From an uncultured Coriobacteriia bacterium (GTDB taxonomy: Bacteria > Actinomycetota > Coriobacteriia > Coriobacteriales > QAMH01), in NCBI GenBank assembly GCA_948466335.1, contig CAOKAE010000001.1:1-64000 (forward strand): 64,000 nucleotides of DNA. Reading direction: 5' to 3'. Each line of letters starts with the position of its first letter. Position 1 is the first letter of the stretch. Position numbers and translations under genes: made by a program. The notes under the pieces were generated by a model that did not search any database, had not been told where the DNA came from, and was given only the letters and a program-made list of their open reading frames with translations. Shown here piece by piece: positions 1-49,094 of this stretch.

Positions 1-1509
1 CGCCCCCATCGACCCGGTGTGGTTGCCCATGCCGGTCACGGTAACGGTGTGCTTGCCGACGCTCTTCATGTCGGCGGGGAACGACAGACGGTAATCCGTG
101 CCCTCCGAGAGCACGCGATCACCGGACTTGACGGTGAAGATGGGCCTCTTCTCGAGTCCGTCATAGGTGAAGCGCGTCTGGCTCATCTCGACGGCGGTGA
201 TGTTCGCGGGCACGATGTTGAAATCCACCCTCTTGATTCCCGTATACCTTCCGATGCCCGTGATGGTCATGCGGGCAACGCCGACGTTGGTGTTGTACAC
301 GTAGCTCACCGTGTAATCGGTGCCCTTGACGAGCGCCTTGCCGTTGGCGGTCACGGTGGGGTTGGGCTCGATGGGCTTGCCCGTATAGGTTTGCGCGGGA
401 ATGGAGGGCGTGGGAAGGTTGGCGATCGACTCGCTCACCGTCCACTCGTGGGTGAGCTGCCTGCCCGACTTGAGACGTGCGGTGATCGTGGCCTTGCCAG
501 CACCCCTGGCCGTGACCTTGCCGTTCGCATCAACGACGCACACGCTGGTGTTCGAACTCGTCCACGTCACGATCTTCGGATCGATGGTGCCATACACCTG
601 GGGGAATCCGGTGTTGTACAGGCAGTACTTCATCGTGTACGTGCTGCCGACGGTCAGGACCTTCATCTGCTCCATCTTCGTGTCCAGGTTGAAGGCCTGG
701 TCCTTTCCGCAGACGCCATAGTTGATGTTGATGGTCCGCGTCGTGTTGCGGTTATCGTTCCAAACGGTGCCGCTGCCGGCAGCGGAGCTAAACTCCTGGG
801 ACCAGTAGAACGGCCCCTGGGAGAAGCAGCCGATGCCGATGGACTTGAAGTTCGGGTTGATGATGTTGAGGTAGTGGCCGACTTCCTTGTAGAACTCCGG
901 AGCCGCCTTGCTCAGCTCGTATCCGGACATGGTCTGCCAACCGGTGGGCAGCGCCTTGCCGTTGTAGGTGCCGGATTTGGCGGCGGCCGCCCAGGTGTCT
1001 CGCTCGTCGTAGAACCAGCTCTGCATGACCGCGGCGGGGCTCTCCTGGCCAAGGGCGATGTTCTCGCCTCCTCCACGTTTGCTGATAGGAACGGCGGTGT
1101 TCGATTCCGACCCGTCGGGACGCGTGTGACTGTAGAAGATCGCAAGCTCGGCGGCGCGCTGCATGGCGGACTCCGTCAGCTCGTAGTCGAGCGTGAGCGG
1201 ACTGCGGCCCAATGCCTGGCGCTCCTTGTTCACGATGGCGAGCACCTGATGGGCATAGCTGTAGTACGCCGCGCCGTTCACCAGCACCTGCTCGTTGTTG
1301 GCGGCCTGAGCTACGAGACCCGCATCGGCATCGTCCGTCGCTGCCACTTCCTCGGCCACCGCGGAAAGAAGCGGCGCGACTTCGACCTGCTCGTCGGCAA
1401 AGGCCTGCGAGGCAGCCCCCGGCCATGCCATGACGGGCATGAGCCCCATCGCCAAGACGAGCGCCAGTGCGGCGCTCGCGATTCTCTTCGTTAACGATAC
1501 CGTGCTCAT
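1..1509 (-). CDS. Secreted CAP-domain surface protein with Ig-like repeats (C-terminus beyond left edge)
   Basis: The frame is open from the ATG at 1509 to base 1 (503 codons, no stop), so the C-terminus lies outside the window. An AAGGGAAG ribosome site precedes the ATG, 14 bases after the stop of the upstream gene. Residues 1-40 are a signal peptide. Residues about 75-235 are a CAP (SCP/PR-1) domain with SHTRPDG near 127, GENIA, and GHYLNIINPNFKSIGIGC near 211. Residues about 300-345 resemble a bacterial Ig-like (BIG2) domain. From about 370 there are two repeats of the type seen in the neighbouring proteins (QTYTGKPIEPNPTV, FTYDGLEKRPIF). By analogy with its neighbours it may end in DUF5648 modules, but that part is not visible. 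Role: extracellular adhesion or cell-surface function, not further defined. Confidence 0.85.
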   Translation of the reverse strand, partial: MSTVSLTKRIASAALALVLAMGLMPVMAWPGAASQAFADEQVEVAPLLSAVAEEVAATDDADAGLVAQAANNEQVLVNGAAYYSYAHQVLAIVNKERQALGRSPLTLDYELTESAMQRAAELAIFYSHTRPDGSESNTAVPISKRGGGENIALGQESPAAVMQSWFYDERDTWAAAAKSGTYNGKALPTGWQTMSGYELSKAAPEFYKEVGHYLNIINPNFKSIGIGCFSQGPFYWSQEFSSAAGSGTVWNDNRNTTRTININYGVCGKDQAFNLDTKMEQMKVLTVGSTYTMKYCLYNTGFPQVYGTIDPKIVTWTSSNTSVCVVDANGKVTARGAGKATITARLKSGRQLTHEWTVSESIANLPTPSIPAQTYTGKPIEPNPTVTANGKALVKGTDYTVSYVYNTNVGVARMTITGIGRYTGIKRVDFNIVPANITAVEMSQTRFTYDGLEKRPIFTVKSGDRVLSEGTDYRLSFPADMKSVGKHTVTVTGMGNHTGSMGA

Positions 1510-1523
1510 CGTCTTCCCTTTCG

Positions 1524-2591
1524 TCACTTCAAGCCGTACCAGCTGATACCCTCGTTGTTCCACCCTTCGTTGAGCAGAAAGTCACGCTCGACCTCGCTCG
1601 TGGTGTAATGATGGTTGTTCGCGAACTCGTTGGGATTGTAGACACGGTACAGCGGCACGCTGTAGCCCGTGTCGGAATACCAGCCGATTCCCTCGTCGTT
1701 CCAACCGGCGGCAACGAGACTGTCACGCTCGAAGGTCGAGAGCGTGTAGTGGTGCTCTCCACCGTACTCGTTGTAAAGGCGATAGACCGCATCGCCCTTG
1801 GACGGGGCCTTCCAGCCCTCACCCTCGTCGTTCCAGCCCACCGAGATGAGGTTATCGCGCTCGACGGTCGAGAGCGTGTAGAAGTGCTCGCCGGAATTGG
1901 GATTGTAGAGACGGAACATCACCTGGCCGGGATCGTTGGGGTCGGTCGGGGTCGAATCGTCGTTCGCAGGGCTCTTGATGCCGGAGTCCTCGTCCTCGAG
2001 GGGCTCGAGAATCTCGAAGTCGGCGGTCAGGACGCCCGCGTAGTTCGCCGTGCCCTTGACGGTCAGGGTATGCACGCCCACGCTACTCAGGTCCTGGGTC
2101 TGCATGCCCACGACGATGTAGTCCTGGCCGTTGACCAGCTCCTTGTCGCCGGACTTCACGGTCACGATGGGCGTCTTGCGCTTGCCGTCGTAGAAGTAGC
2201 GCGTCTCGCTCAGCGAGATTGACGTGATCTGGGCCTGGATGATGTCGAAGGTGACGATCTTCCTACCCGAATACGCGCCGATGCCATTGACGTAGACATG
2301 GGCGGTGCCCTCGCCCAAGTTCCTTCCGTACTCGAGCGTGTAGTCGGTGCCCTCGACAAGGGTCTTGCCGCCAATCATGACCTTCGGCTTGGGCTTGATC
2401 TGCACGCCCGTGTAGACCTGGTCGGGAATGGGCTCGACGTACGCGTCCGTGATGGGCGTGGTGCTCATGGCCTGCTCGGCATGGGCCTGCTGCGTCGCGT
2501 TCGCGATCATCGCGATGGGCACGAAGCTCATCGCCAGCACGACCGCCAGCGCGGTGCGCGCGATTTTGGTAGCTATCGTTTTAGTGCTCAT
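1524..2591 (-). CDS. Secreted protein with Ig-like repeats and C-terminal DUF5648 triplet
   Basis: 355 aa with a signal peptide at 1-38 (TKIARTALAVVLAMSFVPIAMIA). Residues about 48-200 hold two MBG-like Ig repeats (YTGVQIKPKPKVMIGG, YFYDGKRKTPIVTVKSG). Residues about 225-355 hold three DUF5648 units of about 45 aa, each with a YRLYNPNSGEHFYTLS core, an ER motif and a GWNDEG motif. The third carries the NNHHYTT variant typical of the last unit. The ATG at 2591 lies 6 bases after the stop of the upstream gene (TGAGGAACGATG), so translation is probably coupled. There is no LPXTG motif, so the DUF5648 units may provide surface attachment (inference). Function unknown beyond being a secreted repeat protein. 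Confidence 0.88.
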   Translation of the reverse strand: MSTKTIATKIARTALAVVLAMSFVPIAMIANATQQAHAEQAMSTTPITDAYVEPIPDQVYTGVQIKPKPKVMIGGKTLVEGTDYTLEYGRNLGEGTAHVYVNGIGAYSGRKIVTFDIIQAQITSISLSETRYFYDGKRKTPIVTVKSGDKELVNGQDYIVVGMQTQDLSSVGVHTLTVKGTANYAGVLTADFEILEPLEDEDSGIKSPANDDSTPTDPNDPGQVMFRLYNPNSGEHFYTLSTVERDNLISVGWNDEGEGWKAPSKGDAVYRLYNEYGGEHHYTLSTFERDSLVAAGWNDEGIGWYSDTGYSVPLYRVYNPNEFANNHHYTTSEVERDFLLNEGWNNEGISWYGLK

Positions 2592-2597
2592 CGTTCC

Positions 2598-4241
2598 TCA
2601 CTCTCCGATGCCGTACCAGCCGATGCCCTCGTCCTTCCAACCCAGGCCGAGCAGGTGGTCGCGCTCGACCTCACTCGTCGTGTAGTTGTGGTTGTTGGCG
2701 TAGGCGTTGGGATTGTACTGGCGATACAGCGGGACCGTGCCGGCCGTGCGCCAGCCGATGCCCTCGTCGTTCCAGCCCACCGAGATGAGCTGGTCACGCT
2801 CCTCGACGCTCACGGTGTAATGATGCTCGCCCGCGTTGGGATTGTAGAGGCGGTAGACCGGCTCGCCGCCGCTGGGGGCAACCCAGCCGACGCGCTCGTA
2901 GGTCCAACCCACGCTGACGAGGTGGTCACGCTCGACTTCGCTGGCGGTGTAGAAGTGCTCGCCGGAGTTGGGGTTGTAGAGGCGGTACATGTTGATGGGT
3001 TCCGAATACGCCGGGTCGTCCGAGACGGTGAACGTGGTGCTCGCGGTGCCCGTCGCCGACATGATGTCGAGGGCATGCTCGCCAATGGAAAGTCCCACGA
3101 GGTAGCCCGGCGCGAACGTGACATTGGTCTGGTTGCCCTTCAGGTCGTAGTTCTCGGGCAGCACGACGTTACCGTCGACCTTCACGCAGACGAAGTCCTC
3201 GATGGAGGCGCTGGAGCGGAACATCGCGCCAGTCTTGAGACCGATGCCCCAGATGGCTTCCGCACCGCTCACGATGGTGGGGCCGGGGTACTCGGGCCTG
3301 CTCTTGACGTAGGTGTCGGCGACGTTCTTGCGCTGCGTGGCAATCTGGTTTGCGGTGTAGCTCCTGCCGGCAACGGACGACAGCCAGGTTACCTGGGGCA
3401 GCTCGCAGGACTCGTCGACGAAGGCGAACTTGGCGCCCAGCTTCACGCGCTCGAGCGCATCGCATTCCTCGAAGAGATAGCCCATACTCGTCACGTTGGC
3501 GGTATCGAATCCCGAGATGTCGAGAACCCCCAGGGACGTGCAGCCGTAGAACATGCCCCACATGTCCTCGAGACTCGAGGTATCGAAACGCGAGAGATCG
3601 AGATACTTGATGCCCGCATCGGAGAACATGCGCTGCATGTTCGTGACCCGCTCCGTGTTGAAGTTCGTCAGGTCAAGGTCGGTGAGCTTGGCGCAGCTTG
3701 AGAACATGTAGGACATGTTGGTGACGTTCGCGGTGTTGAAGTTGCTCACGTCAATGGACTCGAGCGCGACGCAGCCCCTGAACATGCCCGTCATGGTGGT
3801 GGCCGACGAGGTGTTGAGACCCGAAACGTCGATGGTGGTGAGCGCGGAGCAGCCGTCGAACAGTGCGCTCATGCCGCGGGTGTTGGAGCTATCCAGTCCC
3901 GACAGGTCGACGCTGCGTAGCTTGTCGCAGTTCGCGAATAGGCCATCGAGGCTCGTGGCACCCTTCACGCCAGCGAGGATGCGCGCCGACGTGATGTTGT
4001 CGGCGTGGACGCGCCACGGTGCGAGGCCGTCGATATCCCCGAGCCTTCCCTCGCCAGACTTGGGGCTGATGGTAAGCAAGCCCGAATCGTCGATGGACCA
4101 GGCGCACTCGCCATAGGTGCCGTGGGCGACCTCGCGAGCCTGCGCAGGCGCCGCAAAAACGGGGATAAAGGCCACGACCAGGACAAGCGCGAGGATGGCG
4201 CTCACGATTCGCTTGGTCAGTGTTGTCGTGCTCGTCATCAT
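2598..4241 (-). CDS. BspA-like DUF285 surface protein with DUF5648 triplet
   Basis: 547 aa. The start is the first of two adjacent ATGs (4241), with GGAAG five bases upstream. Signal peptide at 1-34 (LTKRIVSAILALVLVVAFIP). Residues about 75-265 are DUF285 leucine-rich-like repeats of about 23 aa (LDLSRFDTSSLEDMWGMFYGC, MFRGCVALESIDVSNFNTAN). A linker with a short Ig-like stretch follows, and 420-547 is the DUF5648 triplet. DUF285/BspA-type proteins are known surface adhesins of gut and oral bacteria and mycoplasmas; the ligand here is unknown. It appears to lead a three-gene operon with the Ig-like and CAP proteins (gaps of 6 and 14 bases). Confidence 0.9.
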   Translation of the reverse strand: MMTSTTTLTKRIVSAILALVLVVAFIPVFAAPAQAREVAHGTYGECAWSIDDSGLLTISPKSGEGRLGDIDGLAPWRVHADNITSARILAGVKGATSLDGLFANCDKLRSVDLSGLDSSNTRGMSALFDGCSALTTIDVSGLNTSSATTMTGMFRGCVALESIDVSNFNTANVTNMSYMFSSCAKLTDLDLTNFNTERVTNMQRMFSDAGIKYLDLSRFDTSSLEDMWGMFYGCTSLGVLDISGFDTANVTSMGYLFEECDALERVKLGAKFAFVDESCELPQVTWLSSVAGRSYTANQIATQRKNVADTYVKSRPEYPGPTIVSGAEAIWGIGLKTGAMFRSSASIEDFVCVKVDGNVVLPENYDLKGNQTNVTFAPGYLVGLSIGEHALDIMSATGTASTTFTVSDDPAYSEPINMYRLYNPNSGEHFYTASEVERDHLVSVGWTYERVGWVAPSGGEPVYRLYNPNAGEHHYTVSVEERDQLISVGWNDEGIGWRTAGTVPLYRQYNPNAYANNHNYTTSEVERDHLLGLGWKDEGIGWYGIGE

Positions 4242-4259
4242 GCACTTCCTTTCATGTAT

Positions 4260-4285
4260 TAAGGGACCTGGCCCCCTGGCACGTT
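4260..4285. repeat. Degenerate copy of the GTGTAA/GGGTCTGACCC palindrome family (family B)
   Basis: Read on the minus strand, the stop codon of the 578-aa protein leads straight into AACGTGCCAGGGGGCC and then AGGTCCC. This parallels AACGTGTCACGGGGTC after ferritin and AACGTGTAAAAGCGCC after rnr. The outer arms have decayed. It lies 18 bases upstream of the next gene's start. Confidence 0.5.
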
Positions 4286-6020
4286 ACTTGCTCACGCCGT
4301 GCCAGCCCACGCCCTCGTCGCGCCAGCCGACGCTAATCAGGTGATCGCGCTCGACCTCGCTCGTGGTGTAGTGATGGTTGTTGGCGTACTCGTACGGGTT
4401 GTAGACGCGGTACAGGGCGACCTTCTGGTCCTTGTCGGAATACCAGCCCACACCCTCGTCATTCCAGCCGGCGTCCACGAGCATGTCACGCTCGGCAGAC
4501 GACAGCGTGTAATGGTGCTCGCCGGCGATCGGGTTGTACAGACGATAGACCGGGTCGCCGTTGGTGGGTGCCACCCAGCCGATTCCCTCGTCGCGCCAGC
4601 CCTCGTAGATGAGGTGGTCGCGCTCGACGGGGCTCACGGTGAAGAAGTGCTCGCCGGAGTTGGGATTGTAGAGACGCAGCATCAGGTGGCCATAGGTGGA
4701 GCCGCCGTTGTTGCCCGAATTGTTCGAGTCGCCCGGCTTGTTCTGGTCGCCGTCACCCGGCTTGTTGGGCTCGCCCGTAACCTTGAACTCGGTGGACGCC
4801 GTGCCCGTCGAGGTCACGAAGTCGATGGAGTGGTCACCGCCGCCGAGCGATTCGAGGAATTCGGGCTTGAGGGTGATGGCACCGGTCTCCTCGTCGATGG
4901 TGTAGTCGTCCTTGTCGACGACCTTGCCGTCCACGACCACGCAGACGAGGTCATCGGGGTCGATGTCGGTACCGATCTCGAGGCCGTCGGAAGAACCGGG
5001 CTCCCAGGGCTCGGGCTTGTTCTCCTCGTCGATGACGGGGGGCTTCGCACCGGGGTCATCGCCCTTGTCCTTGACGAAGGTGATGGGGCCGTCGCCGGCG
5101 CTCATGCCGTCGGAAGAGACAGAGCCGCCCGTGGCCGAGGAAATCCAGTCGGCATCGGGAAGCATGGCCGACTCGTCGATGAACTCGAACTTGGGACCCA
5201 GCGTGATGCGGTCGATGTTGGTGCAGCCCGAGAACATGCTTCCCTGGCTGTGCACTTTGGAGGTATCGAAGTTCGAAAGGTCAAGTTCCTTGAGCCCCGA
5301 GCAGCCCTCGAACATAGACTGCATGTTCTCGACCTTGCTCGTCTTGAAGTTCGAAAGGTCAAGTTTCTCGAGGTTCTCACAGCCCTGGAACATCACGCTC
5401 ATGTTCGTGACCCTAGAGGTGTCAAAGCTCGAGAGATTGAGCGTCTTGAGGGAGGAGCAGCCATAGAACATACCGCTCATATTTGTCACCTTGGCCGTGT
5501 TGACACCGGAGAGGTTGATCGTCTCGAGATTCTCGCAGCCATAGAATAGCGAGCCCATGTCGGTCACGTTTTCGGTGTGACGGCCCAGCAGGCTCACTTC
5601 CTTGAGGGACTTGCAGTAGTAGAACATGCCGCGCATGGACGTTGCGTTGATCGTGTCCAAGCCGCTCAGGTCGACGCTCTCCAGCTTATCGCACCAGTTG
5701 AACATGTCGTTGAGACGCCCGTTTGCCTTGACGCCCGGCTCGATGACCGCCGTCTTGATTCTCCAGGCATCGTTTCTCCAGCTCTCGTCGCCAAAGCCAT
5801 CGCCAAGCTTGCCGCCGGCAGTGCCGGGGCGGATGGTGAGCTTGCCTTCGTCGTCGATCTCCCACTCGCAGTCACCGCTGACGCCGCTGGCAACGACGCT
5901 TGCCTGCGGACTTGCCGTGTTCGCCAGGGCCGCCGCGGGAACGAGTGCGGCGACGAGCGCAAGCGAAAAGGCGAGCGCGGCGATCTTCTGCAAGATCGAT
6001 AGGTTTCGTTTCATGGTCAT
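4284..6020 (-). CDS. BspA-like DUF285 surface protein with Asp-rich linker and DUF5648 triplet
   Basis: 578 aa from the ATG at 6020. This start is chosen because GGAGG lies 7 bases upstream and a signal peptide follows at once (MTMKRNLSILQKIAALAFSL), whereas the 49 upstream in-frame codons look non-coding. Residues about 50-290 are DUF285 repeats (SNFDTSKV, MFSGCTN). About 300-440 is an acidic linker with an Ig-like stretch and a Pro/Asn/Gly hinge (NKPGDGDQNKPGDSNNSG). About 445-578 is the DUF5648 triplet ending GVGWHGVSK. Predicted secreted adhesin-like protein. It is the second gene in the tandem surface-protein cluster and is followed by a degenerate family-B repeat. Confidence 0.9.
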   Translation of the reverse strand: MTMKRNLSILQKIAALAFSLALVAALVPAAALANTASPQASVVASGVSGDCEWEIDDEGKLTIRPGTAGGKLGDGFGDESWRNDAWRIKTAVIEPGVKANGRLNDMFNWCDKLESVDLSGLDTINATSMRGMFYYCKSLKEVSLLGRHTENVTDMGSLFYGCENLETINLSGVNTAKVTNMSGMFYGCSSLKTLNLSSFDTSRVTNMSVMFQGCENLEKLDLSNFKTSKVENMQSMFEGCSGLKELDLSNFDTSKVHSQGSMFSGCTNIDRITLGPKFEFIDESAMLPDADWISSATGGSVSSDGMSAGDGPITFVKDKGDDPGAKPPVIDEENKPEPWEPGSSDGLEIGTDIDPDDLVCVVVDGKVVDKDDYTIDEETGAITLKPEFLESLGGGDHSIDFVTSTGTASTEFKVTGEPNKPGDGDQNKPGDSNNSGNNGGSTYGHLMLRLYNPNSGEHFFTVSPVERDHLIYEGWRDEGIGWVAPTNGDPVYRLYNPIAGEHHYTLSSAERDMLVDAGWNDEGVGWYSDKDQKVALYRVYNPYEYANNHHYTTSEVERDHLISVGWRDEGVGWHGVSK

Positions 6021-6207
6021 GTCAAAGCCTCCGGGTGTTCGAGGACGTACGGCTGTTTGGCTCCTGCCAATTGCAGGCACGATTATACGGACGAAAACGC
6101 CCGTGTACAGGGGATATTTGCCCAGGCGGATAAAGCGGCAAGGTAGAGGGAAGGCGGTTTCACCCACGTCACAAAACCGTCACCTGTCCTCGACGTTTTC
6201 TCGACAA

Positions 6208-6298
6208 AATGAGACAGCTCGGTCAGACCAAACTGTCTCATTATTTTCTGGTACCTGTATTAAATGAGACAAACTCGTCTGACCAATTTGTCTCATTT
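6208..6298. repeat. Composite two-hairpin repeat, family A (TGTCTCATT), copy 1
   Basis: Hairpin 1 has AATGAGACAG (6208-6217) pairing with CTGTCTCATT (6233-6242). Hairpin 2 has AAATGAGACAAA (6262-6273) pairing with TTTGTCTCATTT (6287-6298). The linker contains CTGGTACC. Both loops contain a TCAGACCA/TCTGACCA core. The TGA stop of the upstream 945-aa gene (6293-6295) lies inside the outer arm of hairpin 2. Copies with the same layout occur at 20345 and 48986. Confidence 0.9.
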
Positions 6299-9130
6299 GA
6301 CGCCGTACCAGGCGATGCCCTCCCCGTGCCAACCGAGCGCGACCAGGTAGCCACGTTCGAAATCGTTGGTGGTGTAATGGTGGTTGTTCGCGAACTCGTT
6401 GGGGTTGTAGACGCGATACAGGGGCGTGCCATGGGCCGGGTCGGAATACCAGCCGATACCCTCGTCGTTCCAGCCGGCGGCGATGAGGCTATCACGCTCG
6501 ACAGTCGACAGCGTGTAGTGGTGCTCGCCGGCGTTGGGATTGTAGAGGCGGTAGACCGCGTCGCCCGCCTTGGGGGCCGTCCAGCCCTGACCCTCGTCGT
6601 TCCAGCCCAGGCCAATCAGGTGCTGACGCTCCACGGTGCTGGCCGTGAAGAAGTGCTCGCCGGAGTTGGGGTTGTAGAGGCGGTACATGGGCTGGGAGCC
6701 GTCCTGCCCGGGGTTATCCGGGTTGTCGGGCGTATCGGGATTGGAAGCCTCGACGATCTCGTAGCTTGCCTCGAGCGTGCCCGCGTAGTTGCCCTTGGCC
6801 GTGACCTTCACGGACTTCTTGCCGGCCTTCACGCGGTCGGCGGGCAGCGTCACGTCGTAGTCGGTGCCGGCCTTGAGGACCTTGTCGCCGCACTTCACGG
6901 TGACGGTGGGCGCCTTCTCCTTGCCGTCGTAGGTGAACTTGGTCTCGGACAGCTCGATCTTGTCGATGGCCGCCGGCACGATTTCGTAGGCCGCCTCGAG
7001 CGTGCCCGCGTAGTTGCCCTTGGCGGTGGCCTTGACGGACTTCTTGCCGGCCTTCACGCGGTCGGCGGGCAGCGTCACGTCGTAGTCGGTGCCGGCCCTG
7101 AGGACCTTGTCGCCGCACTTCACGGTGACGGCAGGCGCCTTCTCCTTGCCGTCGTAGGTGAACTTGTCGGCGCTGAGCGAAACCGTGAGGGCCGTTGCCG
7201 CGGCAATCTCGTAGCTGTTCTCGAGATTGCCCGTGTAGTTGCCCTTGCCCGTTGCCTTCACGACCTTCGTGCCGATGCTGACGCGCTCGGTGGGCAGGAC
7301 CAGTTCGTAATCGGTGCCGACGGAGAGCGTCTTGTCGCCGCACCTCACGGTGATGGTGGGAAGCTTCTCGGCGCCATCGTAGATAAACGTGCCGGTGTCA
7401 AACTCGACGGCGGTGATGGCCGCGGGAACGACCTCGTAGCTGGCGGCGAGCTCGCCCTCGAAATTGCCCTTGGCAGTGACGATAAGGCCCTTCTTGCCGG
7501 CGTTGACAGCATCGTCCGGCTCGGTCACGTCGAAGTCAGTCGCGGGGTCGAGCGTGAGGTTGCCTGCTTTGACGGTCATGGCGGGAATGCGCTTGGTGCC
7601 ATCGTAGGTGAGCTCGGTGGCGTCGAGCGTGAACTCGGTGATGGGAGCAGGGGTGATTTCGTACTCAGCCGTGAACTCTCCACTGTATGCGCCCGCACCG
7701 ATAATCTTCAGGGTCTTCGTACCAGCACTCACGTTGTCATCGGAAACAGTGACAACATAGTTGGCTTCCTCTACGAGCGTTCTGTCGCCGCTCATCACGA
7801 CAACGGTGGGAGTTTTCGGAGTTCCGTCATAAACGAACGTTTCGTCGTAGGTTGCGTTGGTCAGCTCCATCTCTCTCGTATACGTGTCAGCGACATTGGC
7901 CCGTTCCATCGCGATTCGCCGCGCCGTAAAAGGATCAGCACTCTCATCGGCATCCGTAACGGATTTTGAGCTCCAGCTTCCCGCAGGTAGCCAACATGTC
8001 TCATCGGCCTTGTCGAAAGCGAAACCGGCACCAAGCGTAATCTTGACGAGGGCTTCGTCATCGGCGAACAGGGAATTCATGGACGTCACCTTGGAGGTAG
8101 TGAAGCCGGAAATGTCGAGCGTCTTGAGCGCAGCGCAGCCGGAGAACATGGCCTCCATGTCCGTCACGCTTGCCGTCGTAAATGCCGAGAGATCAAGGCT
8201 CTCGAGCACGGCACAGCCCTCGAACATGCGCGCCATGGTGGTGGCACTGGTGGTAACGGCGCCAGTGAAATCGAGCGCCTTGAGGGAAGAGCAGCCCGAG
8301 AAGGCACCGCTCATGTCGGTAGCGTTCGCGGCGTTAAACGCGGGAAGCGTAAGCGTGGCAAGGGAGGCGCATCCGGCGAACATGTCCTTCAACGTCGTGA
8401 CGTCGGTCATATCAAAACCGGAAAGATTGAGGCCCTCGAGCTTCTCGCAACCGGCGAACATGGACTGCACATTCGTGACGCTCGGGGCGGTGATGCCCGC
8501 AAGGTTAAGCTTCTTCAACGAGGAACAATTTTCGAACATAGACTGCATGTTCGTGACGCTCGCAGTATTAATGCTCGAAATCGTAAGATCCCTCAACGCC
8601 GTGCAGTCTTTGAACATATCCTGCATATCCGTAACGCTTGCAGTGTTGAGCCCAGAGATGTTTACCGCAGGCAACGCAGCACAGCCCTCGAACATCGAGC
8701 TCATATCCGTAGTGGCTGAAGTATCAAAATCAGAAAAGCTCACGAAGACCAACGAGGTGCAATTCGCGAACATGCCATGAAGGGTGGCTCCGCTTTTTAT
8801 GCCCGAGCCGATGAAGACATATTTAATATCAGCAGCATGATCTGCCCAGGGGACGGTATAGAGGTTAGGAAGCGTGCCGGTTCCGCTTTCGGGAGCCTCA
8901 ATGGAGAGCTCATTATTTGCGCCGATTGTCCATGTGCAGTCGCCAATCGTGCCCTGAGCAATGGGTCCGGGCGTCGGGTCGACCGAGTCAGTCGTCTCCT
9001 CCGCAGGCTGCACCTGTGGCTCAGCTGGGCTCGCAAGCGCCGCTGCAGGCACAAGCGCAGCGACGAGCGCAAACGAGAAGGCAATCGCCATCGCCTTGTG
9101 CAGGATGTCCATGGGATGTCTCTTGGTCAT
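6293..9130 (-). CDS. Large DUF285 surface protein with five Ig-like repeats and DUF5648 triplet
   Basis: 945 aa from the ATG at 9130 (GGGAGG six bases upstream). The in-frame extension further upstream lacks coding character. Signal peptide at about 1-33 (MAIAFSFALVAALVPAAALA). Residues about 60-400 are DUF285 repeats (MFAGCEKLEGLNLSGFDMTD). About 420-795 holds five MBG-like Ig repeats of about 75 aa, the last two almost identical (FTYDGKEKAP, TVKCGDKVLKAGTDYDVTLP). The DUF5648 triplet closes the protein. Its stop codon is supplied by the family-A repeat. It is preceded by a long non-coding region with a poly-C tract. Likely an extended cell-surface stalk with a ligand-binding head; the ligand is unknown. 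Confidence 0.9.
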   Translation of the reverse strand: MTKRHPMDILHKAMAIAFSFALVAALVPAAALASPAEPQVQPAEETTDSVDPTPGPIAQGTIGDCTWTIGANNELSIEAPESGTGTLPNLYTVPWADHAADIKYVFIGSGIKSGATLHGMFANCTSLVFVSFSDFDTSATTDMSSMFEGCAALPAVNISGLNTASVTDMQDMFKDCTALRDLTISSINTASVTNMQSMFENCSSLKKLNLAGITAPSVTNVQSMFAGCEKLEGLNLSGFDMTDVTTLKDMFAGCASLATLTLPAFNAANATDMSGAFSGCSSLKALDFTGAVTTSATTMARMFEGCAVLESLDLSAFTTASVTDMEAMFSGCAALKTLDISGFTTSKVTSMNSLFADDEALVKITLGAGFAFDKADETCWLPAGSWSSKSVTDADESADPFTARRIAMERANVADTYTREMELTNATYDETFVYDGTPKTPTVVVMSGDRTLVEEANYVVTVSDDNVSAGTKTLKIIGAGAYSGEFTAEYEITPAPITEFTLDATELTYDGTKRIPAMTVKAGNLTLDPATDFDVTEPDDAVNAGKKGLIVTAKGNFEGELAASYEVVPAAITAVEFDTGTFIYDGAEKLPTITVRCGDKTLSVGTDYELVLPTERVSIGTKVVKATGKGNYTGNLENSYEIAAATALTVSLSADKFTYDGKEKAPAVTVKCGDKVLRAGTDYDVTLPADRVKAGKKSVKATAKGNYAGTLEAAYEIVPAAIDKIELSETKFTYDGKEKAPTVTVKCGDKVLKAGTDYDVTLPADRVKAGKKSVKVTAKGNYAGTLEASYEIVEASNPDTPDNPDNPGQDGSQPMYRLYNPNSGEHFFTASTVERQHLIGLGWNDEGQGWTAPKAGDAVYRLYNPNAGEHHYTLSTVERDSLIAAGWNDEGIGWYSDPAHGTPLYRVYNPNEFANNHHYTTNDFERGYLVALGWHGEGIAWYGVK

Positions 9131-9645: not shown

Positions 9646-9669
9646 GGCGATGACATCGGGAAACAAAAA

Positions 9670-9691
9670 CGGGGCCGCGGATGCGGCCCCG
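9670..9691 (-). terminator. Intrinsic terminator of the ferritin transcript
   Basis: On the minus strand, GGGGCCGC pairs with GCGGCCCC around an ATCC loop and is followed by TTTTTG. It lies about 60 bases beyond the ferritin stop codon. Confidence 0.85.
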
Positions 9692-9716
9692 AGTCGTGCG
9701 GTATGTAGCTGGTACT

Positions 9717-9745
9717 CGTGTGTCAGGGTCTGACCCCGTGACACG
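9717..9745. repeat. Family-B palindrome after ferritin
   Basis: Outer arms CGTGTGTCA and TGACACG enclose the inner palindrome GGGTCTGACCCC. It begins four bases past the ferritin stop codon (TAAAAAACGTGTC on the minus strand). Confidence 0.85.
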
Positions 9746-20326: not shown

Positions 20327-20344
20327 GCTCACTCCTCCTGTAGA

Positions 20345-20434
20345 AATGAGACAGTTTGGTCTGACCAGATTGTCTCATTATTAGCTGGCACCTAAAAGAA
20401 ATGAGACAGATGTGTCTGACCAAACTGTCTCATT
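20345..20434. repeat. Composite two-hairpin repeat, family A, copy 2
   Basis: Hairpin 1 pairs AATGAGACA (20345-20353) with TGTCTCATT (20371-20379). Hairpin 2 pairs AATGAGACAG (20400-20409) with CTGTCTCATT (20425-20434). The linker has CTGGCACC and both loops have GTCTGACCA. It fills the gap between the lytR-like stop (20444) and the purM ribosome site. Confidence 0.9.
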
Positions 20435-23905: not shown

Positions 23906-23990
23906 GGAAGATGTCTCTCCTCGACTGCGTTATGCATGGCGTCAATGGTCATTTGACGCAACTAGTATAGAGTATCACCGAAAGCCCAGA

Positions 23991-24021
23991 ACGTGTAAAA
24001 GGGTCTGGCGCTTTTACACGT
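23991..24021. repeat. Family-B palindrome after rnr
   Basis: ACGTGTAAAAG (23991-24001) pairs perfectly with CTTTTACACGT (24011-24021); the loop GGTCTGGCG is a partial GGGTCTGACC core. On the minus strand it begins three bases past the rnr stop (TAGTAAACGTG). Confidence 0.9.
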
Positions 24022-24024
24022 TTA

Positions 24025-36509: not shown

Positions 36510-36542
36510 AATGAGACAAATACCCTGTGTATTTGTCTCATT
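36510..36542. repeat. Family-A hairpin, copy 4 (single, second half decayed)
   Basis: AATGAGACAAATA (36510-36522) pairs perfectly with TATTTGTCTCATT (36530-36542). A decayed second half (GCGAGACA, TGTCGC) follows within 35 bases. It lies between the divergent purA and the PIN-domain toxin module. Confidence 0.85.
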
Positions 36543-36598
36543 GTCCCGTGTGGGAAGCGAGACAGCGCTTGTCGCCGGGTGGGTGGGATTTTCGCTGT

Positions 36599-44904: not shown

Positions 44905-44935
44905 GTGTGACAAGGGGTCTGACCCCGTGGCACAC
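44905..44935. repeat. Family-B palindrome in the nuclease/DUF3810 divergent gap
   Basis: Outer arms GTGTGACA (44905-44912) and TGGCACAC (44928-44935) match at 7 of 8 positions; the inner core is GGGGTCTGACCCC. A TATGAT -10 box for the downstream gene begins five bases later (44940). Confidence 0.8.
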
Positions 44936-44951
44936 GCGGTATGATTGCCCC

Positions 44952-46097
44952 ATGCAAAACGAAGAGAGAACATCGCGGAAAGATGCGGCCAAGGCTGCCT
45001 GGCTCAAGGAACTGCGACGGCTGTGGTTGCTGGTGCCGGGCGTCATCGCGCTCGTGCTCACGATGCTCGCACGGGCGAATCCGGATACATGTGAACATCT
45101 CTTCAGTCGTAGCGTCTACCCGTGGGTTTCGAGCGTATGGGGCTACCTGCCGTCACTTGTAGGTTTCTCGGTGGCGCAATGGGTCGTCATCATCGCCGTC
45201 GTGTCGATTGCATGCATGCTCGTCTATTACATCGTGCGCATCATTAGGCGCGGCGGCGAGCGTCTGCATCACCTCTATCGCCTGGTCATGTCCGTGCTGG
45301 GCATCGTCTCCATCGCGTTTTTCCTCTACGCCATGCTCTGCGGCCTCAATTATTACCGCCACACGTTTGCGCAAAACGAGGGCTTTGACGTACGCGAGTC
45401 CACCACGCAGGAGCTGGTCGACCTGTGTAACGAGCTTGCCGTCGAGCTCAACACCACGCGCGCCGAGATTGGCGATGATATGCAGGCACATATCGACGAA
45501 CGTGGGGGCTTTGCGGGTTACGCCGCGCGCAGCGTCGATGAGATGAAGGCCCTCGCGGAGGAGTACCCCACGCTCCAGCGGCCGGTCTACTCGCGACCCA
45601 AGCCGGTGACGCTGTTCTCGCAGCTCATGTCCTATGGTGACATCACTGGCATGTACTTCGCGTTCACGGTGGAGAGCAACATCAACACGCTGCCGCCGTT
45701 CTTCACCATTCCCTCGACCATGGGGCACGAACTCGCCCATCAATGCGGGTACATGCGTGAGGATGAAGCGAACTTCATCGGCTATCTCGCATGCAAGCAA
45801 AGCGGCGACCCACTCATTCGGTACGGCGGTTACTATTGCGCGTATTCCTATGCGTTCTCGGCGCTCTATCAGGTTGACAAGGAGGCTGCCCGCACGGTTG
45901 ATGCGCAGCTTTCGAATGAGGTGTGTGCGGACTATGCGGCAAGCCGGGAGTTCTGGGCAGGCTACGAGGGACCATTCCGCGAGGTGGCCCAGGGCATGAA
46001 CGACGCGTATCTGAAGGCCAACGACCAGGCCGATGGCACGCGCAGTTACGGCCGCATGGTGGACTTGCTGCTGGCAGAGAGACGAGAGCATGTGTAA
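44952..46097 (+). CDS. DUF3810 membrane metalloprotease-like protein
   Basis: 381 aa from the ATG at 44952. There is no ribosome site, but TATGAT ends seven bases before it, so the mRNA may be leaderless; an in-frame GTG at 44907 lies inside the repeat. Three membrane helices at about 22-40, 60-90 and 105-125. Extracytoplasmic domain from about 130 to the end, with the zinc motif TMGHELAHQCGYMREDEANF (HExxH plus downstream Glu), typical of DUF3810. Substrate unknown. Its TAA stop is formed by the start of the 68-bp palindrome. Confidence 0.85.
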   Translation: MQNEERTSRKDAAKAAWLKELRRLWLLVPGVIALVLTMLARANPDTCEHLFSRSVYPWVSSVWGYLPSLVGFSVAQWVVIIAVVSIACMLVYYIVRIIRRGGERLHHLYRLVMSVLGIVSIAFFLYAMLCGLNYYRHTFAQNEGFDVRESTTQELVDLCNELAVELNTTRAEIGDDMQAHIDERGGFAGYAARSVDEMKALAEEYPTLQRPVYSRPKPVTLFSQLMSYGDITGMYFAFTVESNINTLPPFFTIPSTMGHELAHQCGYMREDEANFIGYLACKQSGDPLIRYGGYYCAYSYAFSALYQVDKEAARTVDAQLSNEVCADYAASREFWAGYEGPFREVAQGMNDAYLKANDQADGTRSYGRMVDLLLAERREHV

Positions 46098-46157
46098 AAG
46101 GGTCAGGGGCAATTACACATACGCGTATGTGTAATTGCCCCTGACCCTTTTACACAT
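46090..46157. repeat. Perfect 68-bp palindrome (double family-B unit) between convergent genes
   Basis: Two 34-base arms are exact reverse complements (ATGTGTAAAAGGGTC to CATACG, then CGTATG back out). Each arm is itself a TGTGTAA/TTACACA hairpin around GGGTCAGGGGC. The DUF3810 stop (46095-46097) lies inside it and the accDA stop (46157-46159) touches its end. It can act as a two-way terminator. Confidence 0.95.
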
Positions 46158-48970: not shown

Positions 48971-48985
48971 GACTCTTCCTTTCAA

Positions 48986-49094
48986 AATGAGACAGATTCG
49001 TCTGTCATCTTTGTCTCATTAGTTACTGGGTCCTGTGGAAAATGAGACAAATGTGTCCGACCAATTTGTCTCATTCGTAGTGTCTCATTCGTAG
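48986..49094. repeat. Composite two-hairpin repeat, family A, copy 3, inside the fab operon
   Basis: Hairpin 1: AATGAGACA (48986-48994) with TGTCTCATT (49012-49020). Hairpin 2: AATGAGACAAA (49041-49051) with TTTGTCTCATT (49065-49075). Then TGTCTCATTCGTAG is repeated twice in tandem (49067-49080 and 49081-49094). The fabF TGA stop (49085-49087) is inside the second of these. Confidence 0.92.

Follow-up and report, generated by a model that had tools for sequence, protein, structure and literature searches.

Repetitive extragenic palindromes (REPs) and their paired forms, the REPINs, are described from Pseudomonas, Stenotrophomonas and Escherichia as short dispersed palindromes, present as singles and pairs, that flank the gene of a cognate Y1 HUH transposase (RAYT or TnpA-REP). 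Textbook REPINs consist of two close inverted repeats. IS elements that insert into REPs are also known, and ISPpu9 reportedly uses a REP as its insertion target. PMC3733652 and PMC6006769 describe a further group, the TIRYT or TnpAY1 subclass 2.1; according to PMC6006769, no REP-like sequences were detected next to subclass 2.1 genes. For GTAG REPs, a preference for 3' ends and the supply of stop codons are described in PMC3733652, and the mode of REP spread is given as unknown in PMC8266576. The closest published idea to the findings below is the REP 'orthoswitch' (Nunvar et al. 2013, PMC3686654), which describes syntenic RAYTs with different REP classes in related strains, where a new class spreads while the old repeats stay and decay.

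The palindromes analyzed here share with the REP/REPIN systems their short dispersed form, their occurrence as singles and pairs and the flanking of a cognate Y1 HUH gene. They differ from them by the lack of a GT[AG]G tag, by pairs that are inverted as well as direct, by a host from the Coriobacteriia and by the loop core YCTGWCC. The likeness to the orthoswitch extends to syntenic RAYTs, different repeat classes in related strains and a spreading new class; here, however, the new repeats occupy the positions of the old ones, and the RAYT gene itself has changed as well (55% identity). In contrast to the IS elements that target REPs, the incoming element in this case is itself a REP. Site-by-site replacement of REPs was not found in the open-access literature searched, which is no proof of its absence.

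The window, i.e. the whole stretch of DNA analyzed, covers 64 kb from the start of contig C1 (317,922 bp) of genome G000 (1.89 Mb, 35 contigs); bare positions refer to C1. Among named relatives, those nearest in the RAYT scan are Coriobacteriia records. G000 was compared with its sister species G002, to which it is ∼95% identical. Both genomes are fragmented and form a single pair; G001, from the same genus, was used as a further comparison. Five contigs of G000 start less than 100 bp from a family-B copy (C3:6, C7:79, C9:56, C19:4 and C30:91), and family-B repeats probably break the assembly. The 91 bp palindrome pairs may be misassembled. Assembly error is an unlikely source of the family exchange reported below, given that the two genomes are colinear on either flank.

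Each repeat family is a palindrome of 25-35 bp that occurs singly or paired at a fixed spacing. Family A has the consensus AATGAGACA-n-GTCTGACC-n-TGTCTCATT and often consists of two palindromes 55 bp apart. With up to 3 mismatches, this pattern gave 84 forward matches, compared to 0 for the reversed-pattern control. A pairs differ from textbook REPINs in that only some of them are inverted; others are direct, e.g. the one at 94430/94485. The A pairs of the window include the following three, to which no strand was assigned. In the pair at 6207..6297, two AATGAGACA..TGTCTCATT palindromes are spaced by 55 bp; the flanking gene takes its TGA stop from this pair, which has an A pair as its counterpart in G002. 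At 20344..20434 G002 has two family-C palindromes instead, and the pair at 48985..49075 is located beside a kept right arm TGTCTCATT that belongs to a single C in G002. Family C (AATGAGACAAATACCCTGTGTATTTGTCTCATT; 36510..36542, no strand assigned) has few copies in G000 (8 in 444 kb) and many in G002, where many copies are identical to the one in the window. G002 has some 10 kb of additional DNA (C2:1816-11899) that starts beside the C palindrome at window 36510-36549.

The family-B pattern matched 25 times, and its reversed-pattern control not at all. The commonest form, gatgTGCCACGGTGCCTGACCCCCTGACAcatc (also written TGCCACGGTGCCTGACCCCCTGACA), occurs at 17 places without mismatch to TGNCANGGTGCCTGACCCCNTGACA; its core is GGTGCCTGACCCCC. 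The preliminary description had taken GGGTCTGACCC as the usual B core, which does not hold: in the window this core is exact only at 9726 and 44915, and in the whole genome it occurs five times, four of them in B hairpins. This minority is the older form of B or an old layer of copies, because its copies at 9717, 44905 and C2:56524 are common to G002. One B pair (C7:42181/42217) is inverted. The main B form has a weak single-strand fold (z -0.42). Covariation of the B arms was rejected as proof of a hairpin, since 86.1% of cells were paired compared to 84.6% in shuffles, 56 of 500 of which reached as high a value. Shifted controls favour a structure that was itself drawn from the consensus. 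A separate GTGTAA/TTACAC family comprises 5 palindromes at 3 sites genome-wide, namely 23991, a pair at 46090 and a second pair at G000:C8:58786/58824; both pairs are inverted. G001 contains no match to the B, hybrid/A or GTGTAA patterns.

In their palindromic nature, their many copies and their mainly intergenic location near 3' ends the elements resemble canonical REPs, with the weak folding of main-form B as a limit to this likeness. A GT[AG]G tag within 8 nt of the hairpin foot was present in 1/39 A, 0/14 B and 0/8 C copies, where ∼4% are expected at random, so the canonical tag is absent. A role of A, B and C as intrinsic terminators was also considered and rejected: the palindromes that were read have no T-run after them, and the one at 9717 has a distinct terminator-like hairpin downstream of it. 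A longer repeat, GTCATTTCGAGCG...GAGAAATCTCGA, of about 100-200 bp was observed at the same gene-end positions that the palindromes take (L127, L131, L190, L216 and the G002 counterparts of window 4263 and 46090).

The preliminary description had listed palindromes at 4260, 9717, 23991, 44905 and 46090 as copies of one family B. All five exist, but a single family of five copies is ruled out, as the GTGTAA/TTACAC and B patterns split the sites: 9717 and 44905 are B, 4260 is degraded B-like, and 23991 and 46090 belong to the separate GTGTAA/TTACAC family. Four are in contact with a stop codon or lie shortly after one, whereas 44905 has a gene start on either side. That the stop codon runs straight into AACGTG is correct in substance and exact only for some copies (ends were read at the ferritin, ribonuclease and LRR/DUF285 genes and at 46090). 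The ferritin gene (PF00210) ends with TAA followed by AAAACGTGTCACGG. The family-B palindrome after this stop is of the older GGGTCTGACCC form with one arm shortened (9715..9745, minus strand; fold z -2.30), and its orthologue is present in G002 (L109). Downstream of the same gene, a hairpin resembling an intrinsic terminator (CGGGGCCGCATCCGCGGCCCCG then TTTTTG; 9663..9691, minus strand) was read by eye. The order is thus stop codon, B element, terminator-like hairpin. The B palindrome GTGTGACAAGGGGTCTGACCCCGTGGCACAC (44905..44935, minus strand) is located between two gene starts rather than at a stop, and is also found in G002 (L113).

Directly after the stop of the gene at 4284, which encodes a surface-type LRR/DUF285 protein and ends with TAA followed by CGTGCCAGG, lies the degraded B-like palindrome (4263..4283, minus strand); G002 has an intact palindrome, GTGCCAAGGGGAGCTGCCCCTGGCAC, at this place. 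Window 1-9000 is a gene run with repeated domains, in which the scanned gene 4284-6167 contains LRR/DUF285 and DUF5648. The GTGTAA/TTACAC palindrome at 23990..24022 (minus strand; GGGTCTGGCGC; fold z -7.25) lies 2 nt after the TAG of an RNB-domain ribonuclease gene (PF00773), the end of which reads TAG then TAAACGTGTAAAAG, and has an orthologue in G002 (C1:85687). In the inverted pair, a called plus-strand gene ends at a TAA inside the first palindrome (46090..46120, plus strand; GGGTCAGGGGC). The last base of the second (46127..46157, minus strand) overlaps the TGA of an accA-type carboxyltransferase gene by one base, and G002 carries a GTCATTTCGA-type repeat there instead.

A bias towards stop codons was observed directly in a 444 kb sample of G000 with 355 genes, called by a custom hexamer script rather than a published gene finder. 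Whole sites were compared with random insertion into intergenic space from which resident elements had been removed; intragenic and contig-edge sites (2 A, 1 B) were excluded. Within 30 nt of a stop we found 20/25 A sites (p = 2.5e-12) and 9/12 B sites (p = 9e-6), compared to a null of 0.159, as well as 4/7 C sites (p = 0.015). Within 10 nt the counts were 14/25 for A and 7/12 for B (null 0.067). A smaller earlier sample agreed with this (A 20/25, B 10/14, null 0.22). The count proposed in the preliminary description, GTCTGACC within 60 nt of stops, yielded 26 of 45 copies, while only 9.0% of bases lie in this range. The core is therefore commoner near stops than elsewhere, the opposite of the result named there as refuting the idea. 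Of these 45 copies, 39 lie inside elements, and none of the 6 outside copies falls in the 60-nt range. The proposed stop preference thus stands as a bias well above chance, which a true target preference and selection on surviving insertions would produce alike. In family A the element often provides the stop itself: the TGA of the A arm AATGAGACA is the gene stop at 6207, 72980, 95747 (for both genes), 98405, 101052, 115875, C3:5449 and C3:14447. In other bacteria, at least 12 of 80 RAYT genes, judged by eye, end within or at their own palindrome. Because the same is described for GTAG REPs in PMC3733652, stop bias and stop supply are a known REP behaviour in a new place.

The TnpA-REP-like transposase suggested in the preliminary description was found: G000 has two Y1_Tnp genes. 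RAYT1 (C1:95003-95752) has A pairs on both sides, with its TGA inside an A arm. RAYT2 (C1:207963-208760) has an upstream pair whose core, GGGGGTCTGTCCCC, resembles that of older B, GGGGTCTGACCCC, but whose arms differ. G002 contains the RAYT2 orthologue (L027), and at its comF locus a different, C-flanked RAYT, 55% identical, stands in place of RAYT1. G001 gave no Y1_Tnp match. The REPtron arrangement is accordingly present for A (RAYT1) and for C (RAYT of G002). RAYT1 and the G002 RAYT score above the PF01797 cut-off, and RAYT2 reached 23.7 and 21.5 bits in two scans (cut-off 23). RAYT1, the G002 RAYT and RAYT2 match NCBIfam NF047646 (REP-associated tyrosine transposase) with 64.5, 63.1 and 71.1 bits; all three values lie below the equivalog cut-off of 80 bits, so that the proteins are not equivalogs by this model. 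A Y1_Tnp domain and the motifs NHFH and YIHKNP, whose meaning as HUH and Tyr motifs follows Table 1 of PMC6006769, identify them as Y1 HUH transposases. A search of solved structures with a two-RAYT profile returned nothing at E 0.01.

By eye, the proteins appear to share the motifs NHFH, FQ and YIHKNP with subclass 2.1 (PMC3733652, PMC6006769), together with a length of ∼250 aa and an HTH-like C-terminus, although HTH_7 reached only 20.5 bits on RAYT2 (cut-off 23.8). The TIR consensus GGGGWSAS of this subclass fits B and the RAYT2 flank (GGGGTCAG or GGGGACAG), but not A (TTGGTCAG). In contrast to subclass 2.1, the flanks here are self-complementary, and family A has ∼84 copies.

Family A is the cognate repeat of the RAYT1 that it flanks, and B was accordingly rejected as the partner of this gene. 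Most likely B belongs to a different RAYT, be it RAYT2 or one now lost; a B-flanked RAYT was found neither among the 2 of G000 and the 2 of G002 nor among 80 from other genomes. A copies are dense around RAYT1: of the 25 in C1:1-184 kb, 17 fall between 80 and 120 kb, a stretch of 40 kb, and the sampled stretches C1:124-184 kb and C1:244-304 kb contain none. This clustering at the RAYT gene (G000:C1:80000-120000, outside the window; L203, L204) looks as if spread were local. The comF gene of G000 (L023 630-718) contains an A pair in frame, at the equivalent of which G002 has a single in-frame C. The breakpoints of an inversion (G000:C1:95747-101142 versus G002:C2:64112-69200) coincide with A pairs next to the RAYT gene or lie close to them.

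The suggestion that A and B share a core and may be related is supported in modified form. The loops are GTGTCTGACC in A and GTGCCTGACC in B, the octamer GTCTGACC is common to A and older B, and a rare hybrid pair (C1:126665/126720) combines A arms with the B-type core GGTCAGGCACC. In the window GTCTGACC is only mildly enriched (6 versus 2.4 expected). Beside the RAYT genes of other bacteria the degenerate core YCTGWCC recurs on either strand. Among 77 usable loci (80 surveyed, 3 unusable), it was present downstream in 26 (5.7 expected from shuffles), upstream in 31 (9.1 expected) and on both sides in 20, compared to 6/63 control stretches ∼2 kb upstream. This recurrence makes the shared core plausibly a recognition feature common to these RAYTs, as far as sequence comparison can tell.

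Different families were directly observed at the same positions in the two species, where G002 carries family C instead of A. For 30 of 38 C sites of G002 both flanks are present in G000; the other 8, dropped as they gave no joint flank match, are C1:2492, C2:1781, C2:63288, C2:64090, L187, L213, L218 and L156, and a C-like site common to both species (C3:6984) was excluded from the 30. At these 30 places G000 has 13 C or decayed C (one with an adjacent A), 10 A, 1 A/B hybrid, 2 B, 3 other repeats and 1 empty site. Conversely, of 17 A sites in G000 C1:1-124 kb, 7 were dropped as not alignable; at the remaining 10 G002 holds 3 A and 7 C, and none is empty. For B, 12 of 16 flank pairs were taken on, two of which (L126, L138) are without a true orthologue, and copies at contig ends were left out. 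Among 13 B sites with an orthologous place, 7 hold B (one in opposite orientation, one single versus pair), 2 C and 2 other elements, and 2 are without palindrome. Leaving aside the C sites shared by descent, 17 remain, 13 of which carry A, B or a hybrid. The chance of this is 5e-10 at a gap occupancy of 11%, as estimated from the 444 kb sample, and 1.2e-5 at 25%.

Individual sites allow a closer look at the exchange. At 98405 CAGGGCATTTGTCTCATGCC comes after the A pair of G000; it is the right half of a C present in full in G002, and this half-C relic was read directly. At 86766 both boundaries agree between the species and the core alone differs. In G002 one C lies inside the loop of another (L180). 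Two cases of clean presence or absence were found, each with its border at a stop codon: at L214 G002 reads TA then AATGAGACA where G000 has TAG, and at L124 G002 continues directly after AATAG. The best reading of these alignments is that resident REPs have been replaced, by a mechanism that we infer. Arm homology is not the whole story, because exchange is also seen between families whose arms differ (B and C, and the GTCATTTCGA repeats), which shows that hotspots contribute.

We consider it likely that the elements are RAYT-mobilized, REP-like mobile elements that collect at gene ends and reuse taken sites. The RAYT, to judge from its family, would nick folded single-stranded palindromes by its HUH/Tyr site and rejoin them elsewhere. 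New copies would survive mainly at gene 3' ends, between stop codon and terminator, some of them supplying the stop, and a site already occupied by a palindrome would tend to be reused. RAYT and cognate family would have been exchanged between the two sister species, with one family supplanting another at many unchanged positions, either because the newcomer inserts into the palindrome already there or because A and C recombine via their shared arms. Mobility, catalysis and the choice between these two routes are inferred. Arguments against this explanation are the lack of a B-flanked RAYT, the weak fold of main B, the absent covariation and GT[AG]G tag, the missed NF047646 cut-off, the mixed orientation of the A pairs and the restriction to two fragmented genomes.

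The strong stop bias would also be expected if the palindromes were functional 3' untranslated hairpins that protect mRNA ends or attenuate readthrough, with A, B and C interchangeable under selection. Such functions have been ascribed to REPs (PMC3733652), a stop codon, B and a terminator-like hairpin follow one another at 9717, L123 and L142, and hairpins persist in place while their sequence changes. This explanation nevertheless appears doubtful: near-identical dispersed copies, as at the 17 identical-pattern B places, and the linkage of A to a RAYT speak for mobility, the fold of main B is weak, and some copies are found within genes (comF, L023) or with a gene start on either side (44905).

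Unlikely, too, is that stop-proximal spots are general insertion hotspots at which A, B, C and the GTCATTTCGA repeats arrived independently in each species, without interaction between elements. The B/C, B/GTCATTTCGA and C/GTCATTTCGA exchanges between elements without shared arms and the stop-codon boundary of both clean cases (L124, L214) would fit independent arrival; the relic at 98405, the kept arm at 48985, the base-exact borders around the changed core at 86766 and the 13/17 non-shared C sites, improbable even at one-quarter gap occupancy, argue against it. The presence of GTCATTTCGA-type repeats at these positions could nonetheless mean that shared hotspots explain part of the exchange. 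An ancestor with A and C side by side, from which each species lost a different member, would account for the adjacency of C and A in the C3:112260 region of G000 and at L184 in both species. Such differential loss is improbable, as it would need many parallel precise deletions, a second element would not fit between the boundaries at 86766, and at 98405 the C is the older element, with the A pair placed within or over it.

Within the preferred explanation of RAYT-mobilized elements, it is possible, and we propose it only tentatively, that REP families succeed each other site by site: a RAYT would insert its repeat into the palindrome present at a gene end, or swap the two, and a RAYT exchanged at its locus would thereby overwrite all resident REPs in place, stops included, with hardly any new sites. 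Two sisters of ∼95% identity with different RAYTs at one locus and different repeats in place let the states before and after be compared in nature, with target choice and replacement readable at base level. They also add an example from the Coriobacteriia, with a RAYT resembling subclass 2.1, a subclass reported without REPs. If resident REPs are the targets, this would explain the confinement of these elements to gene ends, the harmless amplification by RAYTs and the turnover of REP classes between close relatives.
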